Shown here one piece after another: positions 18,910-26,839 of a stretch of 34,563 nucleotides of DNA (positions are counted from its first letter, which is position 1; each line of letters starts with the position of its first letter). Under the pieces are notes generated by a model, which saw nothing but the letters and a program-made list of their open reading frames with translations, did not search any database and was not told the DNA's origin. Source of the stretch: Akkermansia muciniphila. Its GTDB lineage: Bacteria; Verrucomicrobiota; Kiritimatiellia; RFP12; UBA1067. The translations under genes and the position numbers were made by a program. The stretch lies in NCBI GenBank assembly GCA_945870145.1, contig CAMBQV010000010.1:1-34563 (forward strand), read 5' to 3'.

Positions 18910-19596
18910 ATGATGATTTCACGTGTAATTGCTATTGATGGTCCCTCAGGGGCTGGAAAATCCTCAGTGTCCAAGCGTGTGGGCGAGCAACTGGGCTTTC
19001 TGCATGTGGATTCCGGTGCGCTCTATCGTATTATGACGTGGCAGTGTCTTGTCAATGATATTGACACCTCCAATCCTGAGGCTGTAGCCGCCTTCGCCGA
19101 GAAGGTTTCCGTTGATTTCTCGCCCTGTGACGGTAAGATTGCCTTCTATGTCAACGGAGTTGACCCTGGCCATGCCATTCGTACCCCCCAGATTAACCAG
19201 CATGCCAGTCCGGTCGCAACCGTCAAAGCGGTACGAGACCGAATCACGGAGTGGCTACGTGACATGACACGTTTTGGCAACTTAATCGTGGAAGGCCGGG
19301 ACATCACGACCGCCGTTTTTCCAGACTCCCCTGCCCGCTTTTACCTTGTAGCCAGTCCAGAAGCCCGGGCTGAACGCCGTCGTCTCGAAGAGGTCCAGAA
19401 AGGTATTGCCAACCAATCTGTTGAGGATGTGAAAAAATCTCTCCTAGCTCGGGATGCCATTGATTCCAGCCGGAAGCACGCACCCCTGCGAAAAGCCGAT
19501 GGCGCTCTCGAAATTGACAGTACCTACCTGACACTTGAGGAGGTCATTCAGACGGTCATTCAAGCACTCCCCTCGGAATGGAGAAATGGTTTATGA
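18910..19596 (+). CDS. cmk: Cytidylate kinase
   Basis: Cmk phosphorylates CMP and dCMP with ATP in pyrimidine nucleotide metabolism. The protein has about 228 residues, the normal bacterial length. Motifs: P-loop AIDGPSGAGKSS at the N-terminus, HVDSGALYR (NMP-binding), a conserved RTPQINQHASPVA segment, VEGRDITTAVFPDSPARFYLVASPEARAERR, and the lid region ending DSSRKHAPLRKADGALEIDSTYLTLEEV. Three in-frame ATGs occur at 18904, 18910 and 18913. AAAGG ends at 18903, so only the latter two have acceptable spacing; 18910 is used. The stop overlaps the start of the next small gene as ATGA. Confidence 0.95.
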   Translation: MMISRVIAIDGPSGAGKSSVSKRVGEQLGFLHVDSGALYRIMTWQCLVNDIDTSNPEAVAAFAEKVSVDFSPCDGKIAFYVNGVDPGHAIRTPQINQHASPVATVKAVRDRITEWLRDMTRFGNLIVEGRDITTAVFPDSPARFYLVASPEARAERRRLEEVQKGIANQSVEDVKKSLLARDAIDSSRKHAPLRKADGALEIDSTYLTLEEVIQTVIQALPSEWRNGL

Positions 19597-19703
19597 CCCG
19601 TCTCGGATGGTTCATGATGGGGGCGTTTTGGCTAGTCATTATCGTGACGAGCCTCTACTTGGTCTACAAAACAGTCGTCACGCCTCGACAGGATGATGAA
19701 TAA
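19593..19703 (+). CDS. 36-residue single-helix membrane micro-protein
   Basis: The sequence encodes MTRLGWFMMGAFWLVIIVTS, then LYLVYKTVVTPRQDDE and TAA. Residues 6-26 form one hydrophobic helix; the N-terminus has an Arg and the C-terminus ends RQDDE. The ATG overlaps the cmk stop as ATGA, and its own stop overlaps the start of the ketosynthase gene by 11 bases, filling the gap exactly. This double coupling, together with a proper membrane-helix composition, argues for a real gene and not a chance frame. I recognise no family. It could anchor or regulate the ketosynthase, or be unrelated to it. Confidence 0.6.
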   Translation: MTRLGWFMMGAFWLVIIVTSLYLVYKTVVTPRQDDE

Positions 19704-21903
19704 ATCGCGTATAGCCATCAGAGGACTCGGGGCTGTCACCCCCTACGGAGAGGGTGTTAATACACTTTGGCAGGGATTGCTCAAAACAACCTCAGCCCTA
19801 GGTTTGTGTGACCGTTTTGATCTCGGAGGGCTCTCTTGCGCAACGGCAGGGCTTCTCCGATCAACGCCCGTTATTCCCGAAATTCCGCAGGCCTCACGTG
19901 CCCTCGCCTTTGCAGCTGCGGCCTGCCGTGAGGCTCTGACCGAAGCCGGACTGCTCAACCAACCTGAAGCTTGTCGTTCCATCACCCTAATCACTGCCTC
20001 AAATTTCGGTGACATGGAGAGCGTTGAAAAAACGTTGGCCTCCCCGTATGAAAGTCATGAACCCTATCAGCGTGCCGCCTGCGCACAAGCCTCGCTCTCC
20101 GAGATCTTGGCGAACACGTTTCACCTCAGAGGACCCCGCCTTGCCGTCTCCCTCTCCTGCGCCTCAGGGGCCTCCGCAATCTCAACCGCTGCCCAGCTCT
20201 TAGCAAATGGGCGTATCAAGCGCGTCCTCGTGGTCGGATATGATGTCATCTCGCCCTTTTCGTGGAGCGGTCTCTGCTCGTTGCGGACCATGACGAAAGA
20301 GCATGTCCGTCCCTTTGATCTTCACCGCAGCGGAACGATCTTCTCCGAGGGTGCTGCCGCGCTCCTGCTGGAGCGACTGGATGACGAAGCGGAACTGAAG
20401 CCAGCACCCCTCGCCTACCTTACAGGATGGGCCACGGGCAACAATGGATTTCACCTGACAGCACCCGCTGTACGTGGCGCAGGTTCAGCTTTTGTCATGC
20501 GTGAAGCCTTAAAACTCGCGGGGCTTGAACCTCCCCATATTGATCACATCAATGCCCACGGAACAGGGACCCAACCCAACGACGAGACAGAGACACAAGC
20601 CATAAAAGATGTCTTTGGTAGCGTTGCATCAACCATTCCTGTGACCTCCGTGAAGGGAACGATCGGACATCTCCTCGGTGCCGCGGGAGCAATCGAAATC
20701 ATTGTCTCCGTCCTCTCGCTTCAGCATAACCTGATTCCTCCAACTGCCAATTATGAGACCCCTGACCCGGCCTGTGACCTTGATATCGTGACCTCCCCTC
20801 GCACCGTGGCACTCCACCATGTTCTGTCGAACTCCGCAGGATTTGGAGGATGTAATTCAGCCGTCATTCTCTCCAAACGGGATCCGCTAAAACATCCAAC
20901 GTTGAGCCACGCTTCTTCTAACTTGTCCCAGATGCCGGCTTCCCCTGTTTATATTACAGGGATGGGTGCCCTCTGCTCCTTAGGAAACGACCGACACGAG
21001 ATCGCGATTGCCTTACGTGAAGGGGAAGCTGCGCTTGCTCCGCTTTCACGATTTTCATACCCCGGATCACCTGTTGTTGGCGAGATGACAGCCGTAGATC
21101 TGGCCGGGTCCGGCGTCTCCAAAAAATCCTATCTGGACCCTGCCAGCGCTCTTTTTCTGGCTGCCACGGCGCAAGCCCTTCTCCAGTCCGGCTTGACCCC
21201 CGAAGTCGCCAGCAGAGATGCTGTCGGCATCTTAGCCGGCACCTCCTATGGATGCCTAGAAACCGCAGAAATCTTTTTTGCGGACTACCTCTCCAAAGGT
21301 CCCCGTCTGGTCAAGCCACTCCTCTTTCCACACGCCTACACCAACACCCCTGTCAGTCTAGCGGCCATGGAGTGGGAACTGAGAGGCCATCACGACAATC
21401 ATCTCTCTAACGATACGGCCTCGGGGATGGCCCTCCTTCAAGCCTTTGACCTCATTGCGTCCGGACGTGCACGCACGTTGGTCGCGGGTGGCGTCGAGGC
21501 GCTCTCCCCTCTTCGACTTCATGCAAAACAACAAGCTGTTCCCCTCGGGGAAGCCGCTGCAACGGTTGTTCTCTCGACAGACTCTCGTGGCGCACTCGCA
21601 AGGCTCATCGCGTGTTCGCTCTCGACCACACTCCTACAAGCCGTTGAACAGGTGCTACAGGAAGGAAAGCTCACGCGGGAGGCCATTACGGCAATCTATG
21701 TAAACCAGCCTGCCAACGCGGAGGCCCGAGAGCTCTTTCCTCAAAGCACTATCCTGCTCCCTGAAACACTTTGCGGGGATGTTGCTGGCGCCTCCACCTC
21801 TCTTCATCTTTGCCTTGGCCTTCTCTCCAATCCTCAAGGACCCTTCCTCATCTTGACGGGCACCCCCTCAGCAACTGTTGCGTTCCTTGTCCAGACTTAT
21901 TAA
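19693..21903 (+). CDS. Fused double beta-ketoacyl synthase: active N-half, catalytically degenerate C-half
   Basis: A 736-residue protein. Residues 5-396 are a full FabF-like condensing enzyme with active cysteine C156 (SLSCASGAS), H289 in NAHGTGTQPND, K321 and H326 in KGTIGHLLGAAG, and the NSAGFGGCNSA C-terminal loop. After a short linker, residues 417-736 restart with VYITGMGALCSLG, the N-terminal signature of a second ketosynthase. Here the cysteine position reads NDTASG (T575), HGTGT is replaced by NQPANAEARE (about 671-680), and the KxxxGH motif by CGDVAGAST. An active half joined to a dead one resembles the KS/chain-length-factor pairing of type II polyketide and polyene systems, but as one chain. 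The product is unknown. Start ATG at 19693 or 19696; AGG lies close upstream. Confidence 0.9.
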   Translation: MMNKSRIAIRGLGAVTPYGEGVNTLWQGLLKTTSALGLCDRFDLGGLSCATAGLLRSTPVIPEIPQASRALAFAAAACREALTEAGLLNQPEACRSITLITASNFGDMESVEKTLASPYESHEPYQRAACAQASLSEILANTFHLRGPRLAVSLSCASGASAISTAAQLLANGRIKRVLVVGYDVISPFSWSGLCSLRTMTKEHVRPFDLHRSGTIFSEGAAALLLERLDDEAELKPAPLAYLTGWATGNNGFHLTAPAVRGAGSAFVMREALKLAGLEPPHIDHINAHGTGTQPNDETETQAIKDVFGSVASTIPVTSVKGTIGHLLGAAGAIEIIVSVLSLQHNLIPPTANYETPDPACDLDIVTSPRTVALHHVLSNSAGFGGCNSAVILSKRDPLKHPTLSHASSNLSQMPASPVYITGMGALCSLGNDRHEIAIALREGEAALAPLSRFSYPGSPVVGEMTAVDLAGSGVSKKSYLDPASALFLAATAQALLQSGLTPEVASRDAVGILAGTSYGCLETAEIFFADYLSKGPRLVKPLLFPHAYTNTPVSLAAMEWELRGHHDNHLSNDTASGMALLQAFDLIASGRARTLVAGGVEALSPLRLHAKQQAVPLGEAAATVVLSTDSRGALARLIACSLSTTLLQAVEQVLQEGKLTREAITAIYVNQPANAEARELFPQSTILLPETLCGDVAGASTSLHLCLGLLSNPQGPFLILTGTPSATVAFLVQTY

Positions 21904-22013: not shown

Positions 22014-22733
22014 ATGTCCTCTGTCATCACCATAGATCACGTCTCTAAATCGTATGGCACGTGTAATGCCGTATCCGATCTCACCCTCTCGCTTCATGCG
22101 GGGGAGATTTTGGGCTTTCTCGGTGCCAACGGCGCGGGCAAGACCACGACCATCAAGATGTTACTGGGGTTCTTCTCCCCGGATAGTGGCCAAATCTCTC
22201 TCTTTGGGCACAACCCCTCGGACGCCTCCACGCGTCAGCGTGTCGGCTTCATGCCCGAAACCGCCTATTATTACCCCTACTTGAACATCCGGGAACTCCT
22301 CTCTTTTTATGGCGGACTCTGTGGCATGTCCTCCTCTCTTATTCGTCAGCGCAGCGAGGACCTCATTGCGCGCACGGGGCTTGACCATGCGAAAAAGCGA
22401 CTGCTCAAGACTTACTCCAAAGGGATGCTTCAACGGGCGGGCATTGCACAGGCGCTTCTCCATGATCCTGACTTGCTGATTTTGGATGAGCCCTTTACAG
22501 GGCTTGATCCGTTGGCCCGCATTCAATTGCGCGACTTGATCCTGGAGTTAAAAACCAAAGGCAAGACAATCCTCTTCTCCTCTCACGAACTTTCTGAGGC
22601 AGAGCTGATGTGTGACCGAGTCGCTATCATGAAGAACGGCAAGCTCGTCCTAGCCAAACCCGTGAAGGAAGTTGTCTGCGATGGCAACACCAACCTAGAA
22701 CGCATTTTTCTAAACGTCCTTCAAGCCCCTTAG
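22014..22733 (+). CDS. ABC transporter ATP-binding protein
   Basis: A 239-residue ATPase with all motifs: Walker A GANGAGKTT (37-45), the Q-loop region MPETAYYYPYLNIRELLSFYG, signature YSKGMLQRAGIAQAL, Walker B DLLILDEPFTGLDP, and the H-loop SSHELSEAE. The short form with the family-typical sequence TKGKTILFSSHELSEAELMCDRVAIMKNGKL matches ATPases of ABC-2 exporters such as NosF or CcmA-like proteins. It pairs with the permease 11 bases downstream. The substrate cannot be read from sequence. The ribosome binding site is weak and covered by an inverted-repeat arm. Confidence 0.95.
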   Translation: MSSVITIDHVSKSYGTCNAVSDLTLSLHAGEILGFLGANGAGKTTTIKMLLGFFSPDSGQISLFGHNPSDASTRQRVGFMPETAYYYPYLNIRELLSFYGGLCGMSSSLIRQRSEDLIARTGLDHAKKRLLKTYSKGMLQRAGIAQALLHDPDLLILDEPFTGLDPLARIQLRDLILELKTKGKTILFSSHELSEAELMCDRVAIMKNGKLVLAKPVKEVVCDGNTNLERIFLNVLQAP

Positions 22734-22744
22734 AAATAATCGCT

Positions 22745-23524
22745 ATGCACACACTCCGACAACTTTCAGCCCTTATCCGTCTCTCCCTTTACGATCTCTA
22801 TCGGCGTAAAGATCTCGTGATTGTGACGATCCTCGCCGTGGTTGTTCTCGTGCCGATGTCCTTTGCAACCCCCTTCGGGATCAAGGGAGCCAGCCGTTAT
22901 TTAAATGAGATATCCTTGCTTCTCGTCTGGCTTTTTGTACTCGTGATCGCGATGACCCGCACTGCACGCATTATTCCCACGGAAATCGACTCGCGCACCA
23001 TCTATCCGCTTCTAGCAAAACCTGCTTCGCGCACAGTGATCCTCTTGGGCCGTTATGCGGGCGTACTAATTGCCTCGCTCTCCGTACTCTTGCTCTTCTA
23101 TGGCCTCTATGCCCTCATCAACACGATGAAGAGTGCGTTCTTCCCCTGGGAAGTCTTCATTCAGGCCTTGCTTCTCCACATCAGCTTTGTCATCCTTGTC
23201 ACAGCGCTCGCCCTCTTGGGATCACTCTTTTTCAACTCGGATGCCAACCTCTCTGTTTCAGGGATTTTGATCGCAGGCATGATTCTCTATGGCCAGCAAC
23301 TCCCCGTGTTAGCTGCTGAACACTCGCTCCCGATACGGGCAATCCTCCATATCCTTTATTGGCTTGCCCCGCACTGCGAACTCTTTGATATGCGGACCCG
23401 CTTAATTCACCATTGGCCCGCGATTCCGTGGCTGGCATGTTTTTGTATTTTCTTGTACGCGCTGGCCTACGCGGCGTTCTGTTTCGGTATTGCAACTTGG
23501 TTGTTTAACCGTAAAAAAGTCTAA
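22745..23524 (+). CDS. ABC-2 type transporter permease
   Basis: A 259-residue polytopic protein with about six membrane helices (RKDLVIVTILAVVVLVPMSF, then SLLLVWLFVLVIAM, VLIASLSVLLLFYGLYAL, LLLHISFVILVTALALLGSLFF, LSVSGILIAGMILYG, and a last helix ending FGIATWLFNRKKV). The sequence RTARIIPTEIDSRTIYPLLAKPASRTVILLGRYAGV between the second and third helices is the coupling region found in ABC-2/NosY-like permeases. It acts with the ATPase just upstream and is followed 3 bases later by the His-rich TPR gene, so the three may form one functional set. Confidence 0.88.
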   Translation: MHTLRQLSALIRLSLYDLYRRKDLVIVTILAVVVLVPMSFATPFGIKGASRYLNEISLLLVWLFVLVIAMTRTARIIPTEIDSRTIYPLLAKPASRTVILLGRYAGVLIASLSVLLLFYGLYALINTMKSAFFPWEVFIQALLLHISFVILVTALALLGSLFFNSDANLSVSGILIAGMILYGQQLPVLAAEHSLPIRAILHILYWLAPHCELFDMRTRLIHHWPAIPWLACFCIFLYALAYAAFCFGIATWLFNRKKV

Positions 23525-23527
23525 ACG

Positions 23528-24334
23528 ATGAATTTTCCTCTCACGATCACACTCCTTATTCTTCCCCCCTGCCTCTTGTTTTCGACGAGCAATCTCATCG
23601 AGAACAGTAGCGCACGTTGTGGATACTCTGTCCATCCTCAACAGGGACAAGGCGACAACCTTCTGGATATCATTGCAGGCGATACACGAACCATTATCGG
23701 CAATGCGTTGCTTGAGAAAGCGGAGGCCTACTACCATGGGGGGCTCACGGATCACGGCGATTGCTCGCTCGTAACCGCAGGGGAAGGTCATGACCATAAC
23801 CACCATGAGGATGAACGCGACTCCGTACAGAGTTCCGCCTGGCGAGATCCTTGGAGTTATCTCAATGCGCAACTTCAAACCAAGGCTCATGTCCACCTCG
23901 ACAAGGCCGAGGAGTTACTCCCTTGGTATTGGGCTGCGTGCGAAGCCTCACCGCATAACATTCAAGCACTGGAGGCTGCCGCCTATGCTTTAGCCCAAAT
24001 GGCGGAGAAACCGCAAGCGGCGCTTCAACTATTAGAGAAGGGGATTCGGGACAACCCCTACAATGTAACGTTGGAGCTCTCACGCGGAGAGATTCTGATC
24101 AAACACTTTAAAGATTTTAAGAATGCTGAAACCGCTTTTCTCGCGGCGTACCAAAAGAGCCTCCATGAAAAAGCCTCGAAAGACGACATACTCAAGGCAA
24201 AGGCTCTTTTCTATCTGGGTTACATTACCAAGCACCGTAACGATCTCAACGCCCTGCAACAATGGCAACAAATCGCACGGGAGACCATGTCTCTTGATCT
24301 CCTCTCCATCCGCAACCTGCTGGAACTTAATTAG
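23528..24334 (+). CDS. Exported TPR protein with a His/Asp metal-binding patch
   Basis: A 268-residue protein with an N-terminal hydrophobic segment (about residues 5-20) that looks like a signal peptide; there is no good lipobox. Residues 59-77 carry NALLEKAEAYYHGGLTDHG. Residues 85-96 (GEGHDHNHHEDE) are rich in His, Asp and Glu and are a likely divalent-metal patch. Residues 105-268 are TPR-like helices (YWAACEASPHNIQALEAAAYALAQMAEKPQ; QLLEKGIRDNPYNVTLELSRGEIL). I recall similar YYHGG-type proteins in PVC genomes but no function. Starting 3 bases after the permease stop, it may be the extracytoplasmic part of that ABC system. The metal link is inference. Confidence 0.7.
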   Translation: MNFPLTITLLILPPCLLFSTSNLIENSSARCGYSVHPQQGQGDNLLDIIAGDTRTIIGNALLEKAEAYYHGGLTDHGDCSLVTAGEGHDHNHHEDERDSVQSSAWRDPWSYLNAQLQTKAHVHLDKAEELLPWYWAACEASPHNIQALEAAAYALAQMAEKPQAALQLLEKGIRDNPYNVTLELSRGEILIKHFKDFKNAETAFLAAYQKSLHEKASKDDILKAKALFYLGYITKHRNDLNALQQWQQIARETMSLDLLSIRNLLELN

Positions 24335-24902: not shown

Positions 24903-25847
24903 ATGACCTCCCTCCAAGCCTACGACCTGATGCTCACCATTCGCCTCTTTGAAGAGGCCATCGAGCGCCTTTTTCTGGAGGGACGCATCGTCGGCACAGC
25001 TCACACCTGCATCGGCCAGGAGGCTGTCGCGGTTGGCGTGGCCACAGCGCTTCAGATCCAAGATGCGATGACCTCGACTCATCGTGGCCATGGACACTTT
25101 ATCGCGCGAGGAGCAGACCCTCGCCGAGTGATGGCCGAGCTTTTCGGACGCGAGACTGGCTACTCCAAGGGACGCGGAGGCAGCCAAATGATGATGGATC
25201 CTTCGCTTGGTTTTTACGGTGCCAATGGTATCACAGGTGCCAGCATACCCTTTGCAGCGGGCCTCGCACTTGATGCCCAGATGCGTCAGTCTAATCGTGT
25301 CACTGTCTGCCTTTTCGGTGATGGGGCCTCGAACCAGGGCGTCTTTCATGAAACTCTAAATATTGCTTCCCTCTGGAAACTCCCCATTCTCTTCATTGTA
25401 GAAAACAATGGTTACGCCATGTCCACAGCAACCTCTCGCGGACTTGCCAATCCCTCTGTCGCTGACCGCGCGGCATCCTATAACATGCCTGGCATTACTG
25501 TAGATGGAAACGATTTCTTTGCCGTCCGTGAGCGTGTCGAACACTTTGCAGAAGCCGCACGAAAGGGGGCAGGTCCCGCTTTGATTGAATGTCAAACCTA
25601 TCGACTCTCTGGCCATTCGCGCGGCGACCCACGTACCTACCGTACGCGCGAAGAGGAGGTTCAAGCCCAGAAGGAGGATCCGCTCCTGCGCATGGAAACC
25701 CATCTCTCAAAAACGGAGGCTGTTCCGATCGCAACACTTGTCGCGCACCAGAAGCAGGTTCATGCCAAGATAGACGAAGTGATACGTTTCTGTGATGCCT
25801 CGCCCGTTCCTGACCCCCTCAACTATCTTGCGGAGGTCCTCTTATGA
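24903..25847 (+). CDS. pdhA: Pyruvate (2-oxo acid) dehydrogenase E1 component, alpha subunit
   Basis: A 314-residue E1 alpha. It decarboxylates pyruvate or a related 2-oxo acid with thiamine diphosphate. The TPP motif is GDGASNQGVFHETLNIASLWKLPILFIVENN (139-169), with D140 and N169/N170 as metal and cofactor ligands. Other hallmarks are STHRGHGHFIARG and SKGRGGSQMM (phosphorylation-loop region), and TYRLSGHSRGDPRTYRTREE. Substrate could also be acetoin or branched-chain 2-oxo acids; the sequence alone does not decide. No Shine-Dalgarno sequence precedes the ATG. The stop overlaps pdhB as ATGA, so both subunits are made in step. Confidence 0.94.
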   Translation: MTSLQAYDLMLTIRLFEEAIERLFLEGRIVGTAHTCIGQEAVAVGVATALQIQDAMTSTHRGHGHFIARGADPRRVMAELFGRETGYSKGRGGSQMMMDPSLGFYGANGITGASIPFAAGLALDAQMRQSNRVTVCLFGDGASNQGVFHETLNIASLWKLPILFIVENNGYAMSTATSRGLANPSVADRAASYNMPGITVDGNDFFAVRERVEHFAEAARKGAGPALIECQTYRLSGHSRGDPRTYRTREEEVQAQKEDPLLRMETHLSKTEAVPIATLVAHQKQVHAKIDEVIRFCDASPVPDPLNYLAEVLL

Positions 25848-26839
25848 GCATCACCTTCACACAGGCTCTTCGCGACACCTTAACCGCCGAGATGAAACGC
25901 GACCCCTCGATCTTCTTGATGGGAGAGGATATTGGTCTTTATGGAGGTGCCTTCGGGGTGACGCGAGGACTCCTGGAAACCTTCGGACCTCAACGTGTAC
26001 GTGACACCCCCATCTCTGAACAGGCCCTCACCGGGATCGCCATTGGCGCGGCCGTCGCAGGACAACGCCCGGTCATTGAGTTCATGTTTATGGATTTTAT
26101 CACGCTGGCCGTCGATCAGATCGTCAACATGGCTGCGAAACTCAAGCCTATTTACGGAATGGACTGCCCCCTGGTCATCCGCGCCCCGCATGGAGGCGGT
26201 CGTGGCTATGGCGCGACACACTCCCAGTCCCTCGAACGCCTCTTCATGGGAATCCCAGGCATCTTAATCGCAGCCCCCTCCAATGCAGCTGATGCATCTG
26301 CACTTTTACAAACCGCCTTGCGTGGAAAAAGCCCCGTCCTCTTTCTCGAACACAAAATGCTCTATCCTCAGCGGTTTGACGATATTGACCCCTTGCCCGA
26401 GCCCATTCCGTTCGGTGTTGCAAATGTTGTGAGAACAGGCAAGGATGTCACACTCATATCGTGGTCCTACATGACGCAACTGGCCATACAAGCCTCGGAC
26501 CAACTCCGCTCAAGTGGCATTGAAGCAGAGGTCATTGATTTACTCACGCTCAACCCACTCGACATGGGCATGATTATCGAGTCTCTAAAACAGACTGGTC
26601 GGGTGATGATTATTGAGGAAGGACCTAAGACTGGCGGGGTCGGCGCTGAAATCGCTGCGCAGATCATGGAACAGGCCTATGACTATTTAGAAAAGCCCCT
26701 CCTGCGACTTGCCTCGCCCGATCTGCCGATCCCCTCGGCCAAAAATCTCGAAGCTGCTTGCATTCCCTCGGCGGAGTCCATTCAGAAAGCCGCCCGGGAG
26801 TTGCTAAGCAGTAATCAGGGGACAGTAATCAGTGACTGA
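25844..26839 (+). CDS. pdhB: Pyruvate (2-oxo acid) dehydrogenase E1 component, beta subunit
   Basis: A 331-residue E1 beta with EDIGLYGGAFGVTRGL, PISEQALTGIAIGAAVAGQRPVIEFMFMDFITLAVDQIVNMAAK, the conserved APHGGGRGYGATHSQSLE loop and the C-terminal EEGPKTGGVGAEIAAQI segment. E1 alpha and beta form the heterotetramer that loads the lipoyl arm of E2. No E2 or E3 gene follows: the next gene, comF, is convergent. The last ten residues (SSNQGTVISD) are read from a CAGT-type repeat that continues past the stop, so the natural C-terminus has probably been replaced or extended. Confidence 0.95.
   Translation: MSITFTQALRDTLTAEMKRDPSIFLMGEDIGLYGGAFGVTRGLLETFGPQRVRDTPISEQALTGIAIGAAVAGQRPVIEFMFMDFITLAVDQIVNMAAKLKPIYGMDCPLVIRAPHGGGRGYGATHSQSLERLFMGIPGILIAAPSNAADASALLQTALRGKSPVLFLEHKMLYPQRFDDIDPLPEPIPFGVANVVRTGKDVTLISWSYMTQLAIQASDQLRSSGIEAEVIDLLTLNPLDMGMIIESLKQTGRVMIIEEGPKTGGVGAEIAAQIMEQAYDYLEKPLLRLASPDLPIPSAKNLEAACIPSAESIQKAARELLSSNQGTVISD

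Follow-up and report, generated by a model that had tools for sequence, protein, structure and literature searches.

A fused ketosynthase and chain length factor-like protein of Verrucomicrobiota, probable condensing enzyme of a dedicated acyl pathway

Introduction

PfaC of the bacterial PUFA synthase contains a live ketosynthase (KS) followed by a dead chain length factor (CLF) in one chain (PDB 6riw), with DH domains after this KS-CLF didomain. An intramolecular KS-CLF dimer has been proposed for the gammaproteobacterial PUFA synthases (PMC13311796). The type II polyketide KS-CLF, represented by the actinorhodin enzyme (1TQY) and by a Streptomyces pair (L112), also divides into an active and an inactive partner and is served by a discrete acyl carrier protein (ACP) and a ketoreductase (KR). 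A catalogue of type II polyketide synthases lists 14 phyla, and Verrucomicrobiota is not among them (PMC10132072). The aryl polyene ApeO-ApeC likewise combines a KS with a reduced inactive partner; ApeC is a single thiolase-fold domain of about half the KS size (PMC8358021). PDB entries 9s5h and 9s5i hold a further KS/CLF-like pair as separate chains. The source organism and product of 9S5H were not found in the literature searched, which covered few subscription journals.

The protein described here is encoded in a stretch of 34,563 nucleotides (the window) from a genome that genome statistics place in Verrucomicrobiota, probably in Kiritimatiellia, and joins a live and a dead KS in the same order as PfaC. 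The sequence-only reading had regarded such a covalent fusion as unusual; PfaC provides a precedent, with the same predicted pseudo-dimer arrangement (TMq 0.84). However, the two share only 16% identity, the present protein is a stand-alone chain of 736 aa that ends at the dead half and has only ketoacyl-synthase-type Pfam matches, and it differs from PfaC in having a separate-gene ancestry in its own phylum. Unlike the type II polyketide KS-CLF, it is fused, its halves belong to KS and CLF clades of their own (as judged against one Streptomyces reference pair), and it is genomically associated with a 2-oxoacid dehydrogenase E1 and a lipoyl protein. Its C-half, unlike ApeC, is about 320 aa long, retains more of the fold and is joined to the KS in one chain. 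Among PDB sequences, the C-half profile matches chain C of 9s5h best; this chain likewise carries Thr in place of the cysteine and falls outside the CLF clade. Chain B matches the N-half.

Results

The fusion gene is a single intact ORF with an ATG start and zero internal stops (Table 1). Pfam ketoacyl-synt was matched by both halves (6e-18 for the C-half alone), and Ketoacyl-synt_C by the N-half only. Alignment located C156, H289, K321 and H326 in the N-half, as the sequence-only reading had them, together with GFGG. In the corresponding columns the C-half reads SNDTA (which contains Thr575), YVNQP, LPETL and CGDVA. The C-half has neither HGTGT nor KxxxGH, and the fold motifs quoted for it are all there, in agreement with its earlier description as a dead ketosynthase. 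At the nucleophile site, the 21 C-halves aligned all lack cysteine and carry Thr, Ala, Ile, Ser, Val, Asn or Leu instead. The Cys-His-His-Lys residues are kept in all KS rows compared and are missing from all CLF rows. Against the FabF (KAS II) equivalog NCBIfam TIGR03150, the N-half scored 283 bits and the whole protein 351 bits, both below the cut-off of 493.75. A 41-codon ORF at 19578–19703 overlaps both genes where cmk ends and the fusion gene starts; it would encode a small single-TM-like protein.

Table 1. Coordinates of the fusion gene, its parts and the E1 genes in the window
Feature	Position	Strand	Evidence
KS-CLF fusion protein, 736 aa	19693..21903	+	ORF, Pfam, homologues, AlphaFold2 model
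N-half (aa 1–396), intact ketosynthase	19693..20880	+	Pfam, alignment
Cys156 codon	20158–20160	+	
His289 codon	20557–20559	+	
Lys321 codon	20653–20655	+	
His326 codon	20668–20670	+	
Inter-domain linker (aa 397–416)	20881..20940	+	pLDDT <50 at residues 406–412
C-half (aa 417–736), dead ketosynthase / CLF-like	20941..21900	+	Pfam, alignment, model
Thr575 codon, cysteine site of C-half	21415–21417	+	alignment
aa 535–551, KGPRLVKPLLFPHAYTN, best-conserved C-half stretch, aligned to the FabF loop with Phe133	21295..21345	+	alignment
E1 alpha, 2-oxoacid dehydrogenase, KS-CLF-cluster type	24903..25847	+	identity to distant relatives' forms
E1 beta, cluster type; 4-base overlap with E1 alpha	25844..26839	+	Pfam, identity

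An AlphaFold2 model of the fusion, computed with 16 fused sequences as input, has a mean pLDDT of 86, a disordered linker at residues 406–412 and a pTM of 0.92, which is not an interface score. The best Foldseek match in the PDB to span both halves is 6riw, over 880 columns, and the remaining top matches are all single FabF-like chains. Modelled alone, the C-half reaches a pLDDT of 91 and a pTM of 0.91, and it matches FabF and the chains of the ishigamide KS/CLF at a TMq of about 0.82–0.90. The strands of both sub-domains are present in it, and its match to FabF extends over about 410 columns. The predicted packing of the two halves as a KS-type pseudo-dimer is well supported by the model, short of proof. 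The suspected covalent KS/CLF-type pair thereby gains a full-length structural counterpart, and Pfam, the modelled fold and the tree described below identify the C-half as a ketosynthase.

Phe133 of E. coli FabF reaches from one subunit of the dimer into the acyl pocket of the other. Conservation was measured as the mean frequency of the commonest residue per block, in an alignment to E. coli FabF. For the segment equivalent to FabF 123–142, which includes Phe133, it is 0.82 among the CLF, more than in any other CLF block. Among the KS the segment is shortened and the value is 0.32, the lowest of all KS blocks. This asymmetry is seen in fused, split and distant KS/CLF pairs alike. By alignment, the dead half keeps a loop that would serve the pocket of the live half, and the live half's counterpart is eroded; a KS homodimer would therefore be without that loop. 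The one-sided erosion of the segment aligned to the dimer-crossing FabF loop offers a clean sequence signature of the division of labour between KS and CLF. Position 108 is Phe in all KS rows compared and usually Trp, Tyr or Phe in the CLF, which suggests that the acyl pocket is short. We infer that the C-half may control the chain length of the product, as a CLF does.

At least 15 genomes of the window's GTDB family encode a full-length fused homologue, which answers the earlier question of whether relatives carry the same fusion. Between the window and a genus-mate (L018, Loc090721-8-6m bin-0330), dN/dS is about 0.10 for the N-half and about 0.13 for the C-half; by this ratio, purifying selection acts on the dead half. 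A scan of a collection of genome contigs gave one close relative and one generic KS, and a search of plasmid records with the C-half gave only weak FabF matches.

A maximum-likelihood tree of 61 rows was computed with FabF, FabB, KasB, NodE and Streptomyces KSalpha/CLF as references, a thin sampling in which type II polyketide synthases are represented by the single Streptomyces pair. The 24 KS rows all group in a single clade (100/100) and the 23 CLF rows in a second (100/99), both outside every one of these references. Each half thus has its own clade, the outcome that the sequence-only reading had left to phylogeny, and these clades set the KS and the CLF apart from the small number of FabF, FabB and actinomycete KS/CLF sequences used for comparison. 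The KS and CLF are separate adjacent genes in the sister families f2 and f6 (G037, G042, G046, G053, G056) and lie on different contigs in family f5. Fused forms are found throughout f1, in G059 and in the distant family f80 (G408), and at least two changes of fusion state are needed on the trees.

A phylum-wide profile search with the C-half revealed a second tier of homologues at about 190–255 bits; ordinary KS score about 175 bits or less. The second-tier homologues, which come from other families and classes, sit in a conserved gene set of the order KR-KS-CLF-E1a-E1b-GT2-ACP-hydrolase. The KR is FabG-type and the hydrolases are exosortase-type. The cluster also holds a 160-aa lipoyl plus E3-binding protein, and the lipoyl proteins examined are devoid of an E2 acyltransferase domain. 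In most of the distant clusters the KS-CLF lies ahead of E1alpha on the same strand, and a GT2 gene comes directly after E1beta. One cluster member, of 1,000–1,900 aa, has no Pfam match. Across the order and beyond, a protein of 1,600–2,000 aa with essentially no Pfam match adjoins the lipoyl gene (L106:9938–15748, L111:3648–9461, L102:10158–16175, and the distant clusters).

Among 22 genomes with KS-CLF, the cluster-type lipoyl gene is present in 19, E1alpha in 19 (plus one where it is split over two contigs) and the ACP in 20, a gene being counted as cluster type when its score lay clearly above the housekeeping form, by a threshold read off the score gap and not preset. Of 22 same-order genomes without KS-CLF, 21 have no cluster-type copy of any of these genes and one, G009, has all three. 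The genomes are related, and these counts are not independent events. G009 carries cluster-type E1alpha, ACP and lipoyl genes (C195, C269 and C279), and KS-CLF was not detected in it. Since it belongs to a genus with fused forms, an assembly gap is a possible explanation. A different KS match (33% identity) lies on the contig of its ACP. In G059, a genome 62% complete, the fusion is divergent and the lipoyl, E1 and ACP genes are all missing.

In the window, E1alpha and E1beta lie 3 kb downstream of the fusion. Window E1alpha has 50–58% identity to the cluster forms and 34% to the genome's other E1; for E1beta the identity to the cluster forms is 49–56%. Elsewhere in the genome are a cluster-type lipoyl protein (G000:C92:1329–1766, 129.5 bits, next best 74) with an intact lysine in DKA, and a cluster-type ACP (G000:C4:24312–24551, 106 bits, next best 43) with an intact serine in DSV. 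The statement that no carrier or reductase is nearby is true locally only: given these ACP and lipoyl genes and the E1 pair downstream, the fusion does not work without a carrier. The order of genes flanking it differs between members of the family, and the link to a pathway therefore rests on the distant clusters, the co-occurrence and one genus. The neighbouring cmk, which had been offered as context, is shared only with the genus-mate; neighbourhoods differ beyond the genus, and a link to cmk was rejected as incidental. Between the fusion and the DJ-1/E1 genes, an ABC ATPase, an ABC-2 permease and an unassigned 268-aa protein (22014–24334) are conserved only in the genus-mate.

Discussion

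The protein is best read as a fused KS-CLF condensing enzyme of a dedicated acyl pathway, whose genes lie together in distant relatives and are scattered in the order of the window (probability roughly 0.7). The KS-CLF, carrier protein and E1 genes look like an undescribed small pathway; no description of the KS-CLF/E1/lipoyl/ACP combination was found in the literature searched, whose coverage was incomplete and included few subscription journals. A polyene product, which had been thought possible, gains no support, as the ancestral cluster carries a ketoreductase only.

In the proposed mechanism, an obligate KS-CLF heterodimer would have been joined into one chain. The N-half would carry out decarboxylative Claisen condensation. 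The C-half, its catalysis lost, would complete the dimer and act like a chain length factor, with its loop KGPRLVKPxLFPHxYxN walling the acyl pocket of the live half. Alongside the KS-CLF, the pathway would use an ACP of its own, a ketoreductase, the E1alpha/E1beta pair and a free-standing lipoyl/E3-binding protein without an E2 acyltransferase domain. E1 would convert a 2-oxoacid to a short acyl-lipoyl thioester, and this acyl group could prime the KS either directly or by way of the ACP. A single condensation with malonyl-ACP, or a few, may follow, the KR would reduce the condensation product, and a short 3-hydroxyacyl group may be delivered to a surface glycan or lipid.

The co-occurrence of E1, an E2-domain-less lipoyl protein and an ACP raises the question of whether a ketosynthase can be primed straight from lipoamide. 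Priming of the KS-CLF by the E1/lipoyl carrier is our hypothesis. In its most direct version, the KS-CLF would replace E2 and condense the lipoyl-borne acyl group with malonyl on the dedicated ACP, a version which we regard as doubtful. If true, one system would unite a 2-oxoacid dehydrogenase with a minimal type II synthase. A literature search for lipoyl-primed ketosynthases and naphthyridinomycin-type loading gave nothing directly relevant, which is weak evidence as few subscription journals were covered.

The strongest rival, whose chance we put somewhat short of even, is that the KS-CLF fusion is primed conventionally by acyl-CoA or acyl-ACP, and that E1 and the lipoyl protein serve another step, such as a two-carbon sugar branch. 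The E1-like proteins AviB1/AviB2 and Pau11/Pau12 are described as installing a two-carbon branch on sugars (PMC4425429), and the GT2 gene that follows E1beta in most of the distant clusters would suit such a role. However, the E1 genes are accompanied by the stand-alone lipoyl/E3-binding protein and the ACP, and the KS-CLF precedes E1alpha on the same strand in most distant clusters; supply of an acyl thioester fits these features better than free two-carbon transfer.

It is less probable, indeed unlikely, that the C-half serves as a pseudoenzyme for regulation or ACP docking instead of as a chain length factor, with the N-half working as an ordinary homodimer. CLF surfaces do contact the ACP in the ishigamide KS-CLF complex (PMC8358021), as such docking would have it, but the KS half has lost its own loop lining the partner pocket, and the full-length match to the PfaC KS-CLF also speaks against this view. 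An accidental tandem duplication of FabF with its second copy decaying, which the shortened and more divergent C-half might recall, is barely credible and was rejected on dN/dS and conservation, given the C-half's low ratio, the fusion conserved across the family, the versions with two separate genes, the repeated changes of fusion state and the separate clades of the two halves.

The cispentacin proteins AmcB/AmcF/AmcG were also compared. In NCBIfam, the only match of the genome's cluster-type ACP is AmcB, at 62 bits against a cut-off of 80, and AmcG gives a weak match to the C-half; all Amc matches lie below curated cut-offs.

The same genome holds a second KS locus (L043, G000:C48, 1410–8810) with a KS, an ACP, a FabG-size gene, an AMP-binding enzyme and a 568-aa KS. 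This last protein has about 190 extra C-terminal residues without a Pfam match, which resemble a truncated KS.
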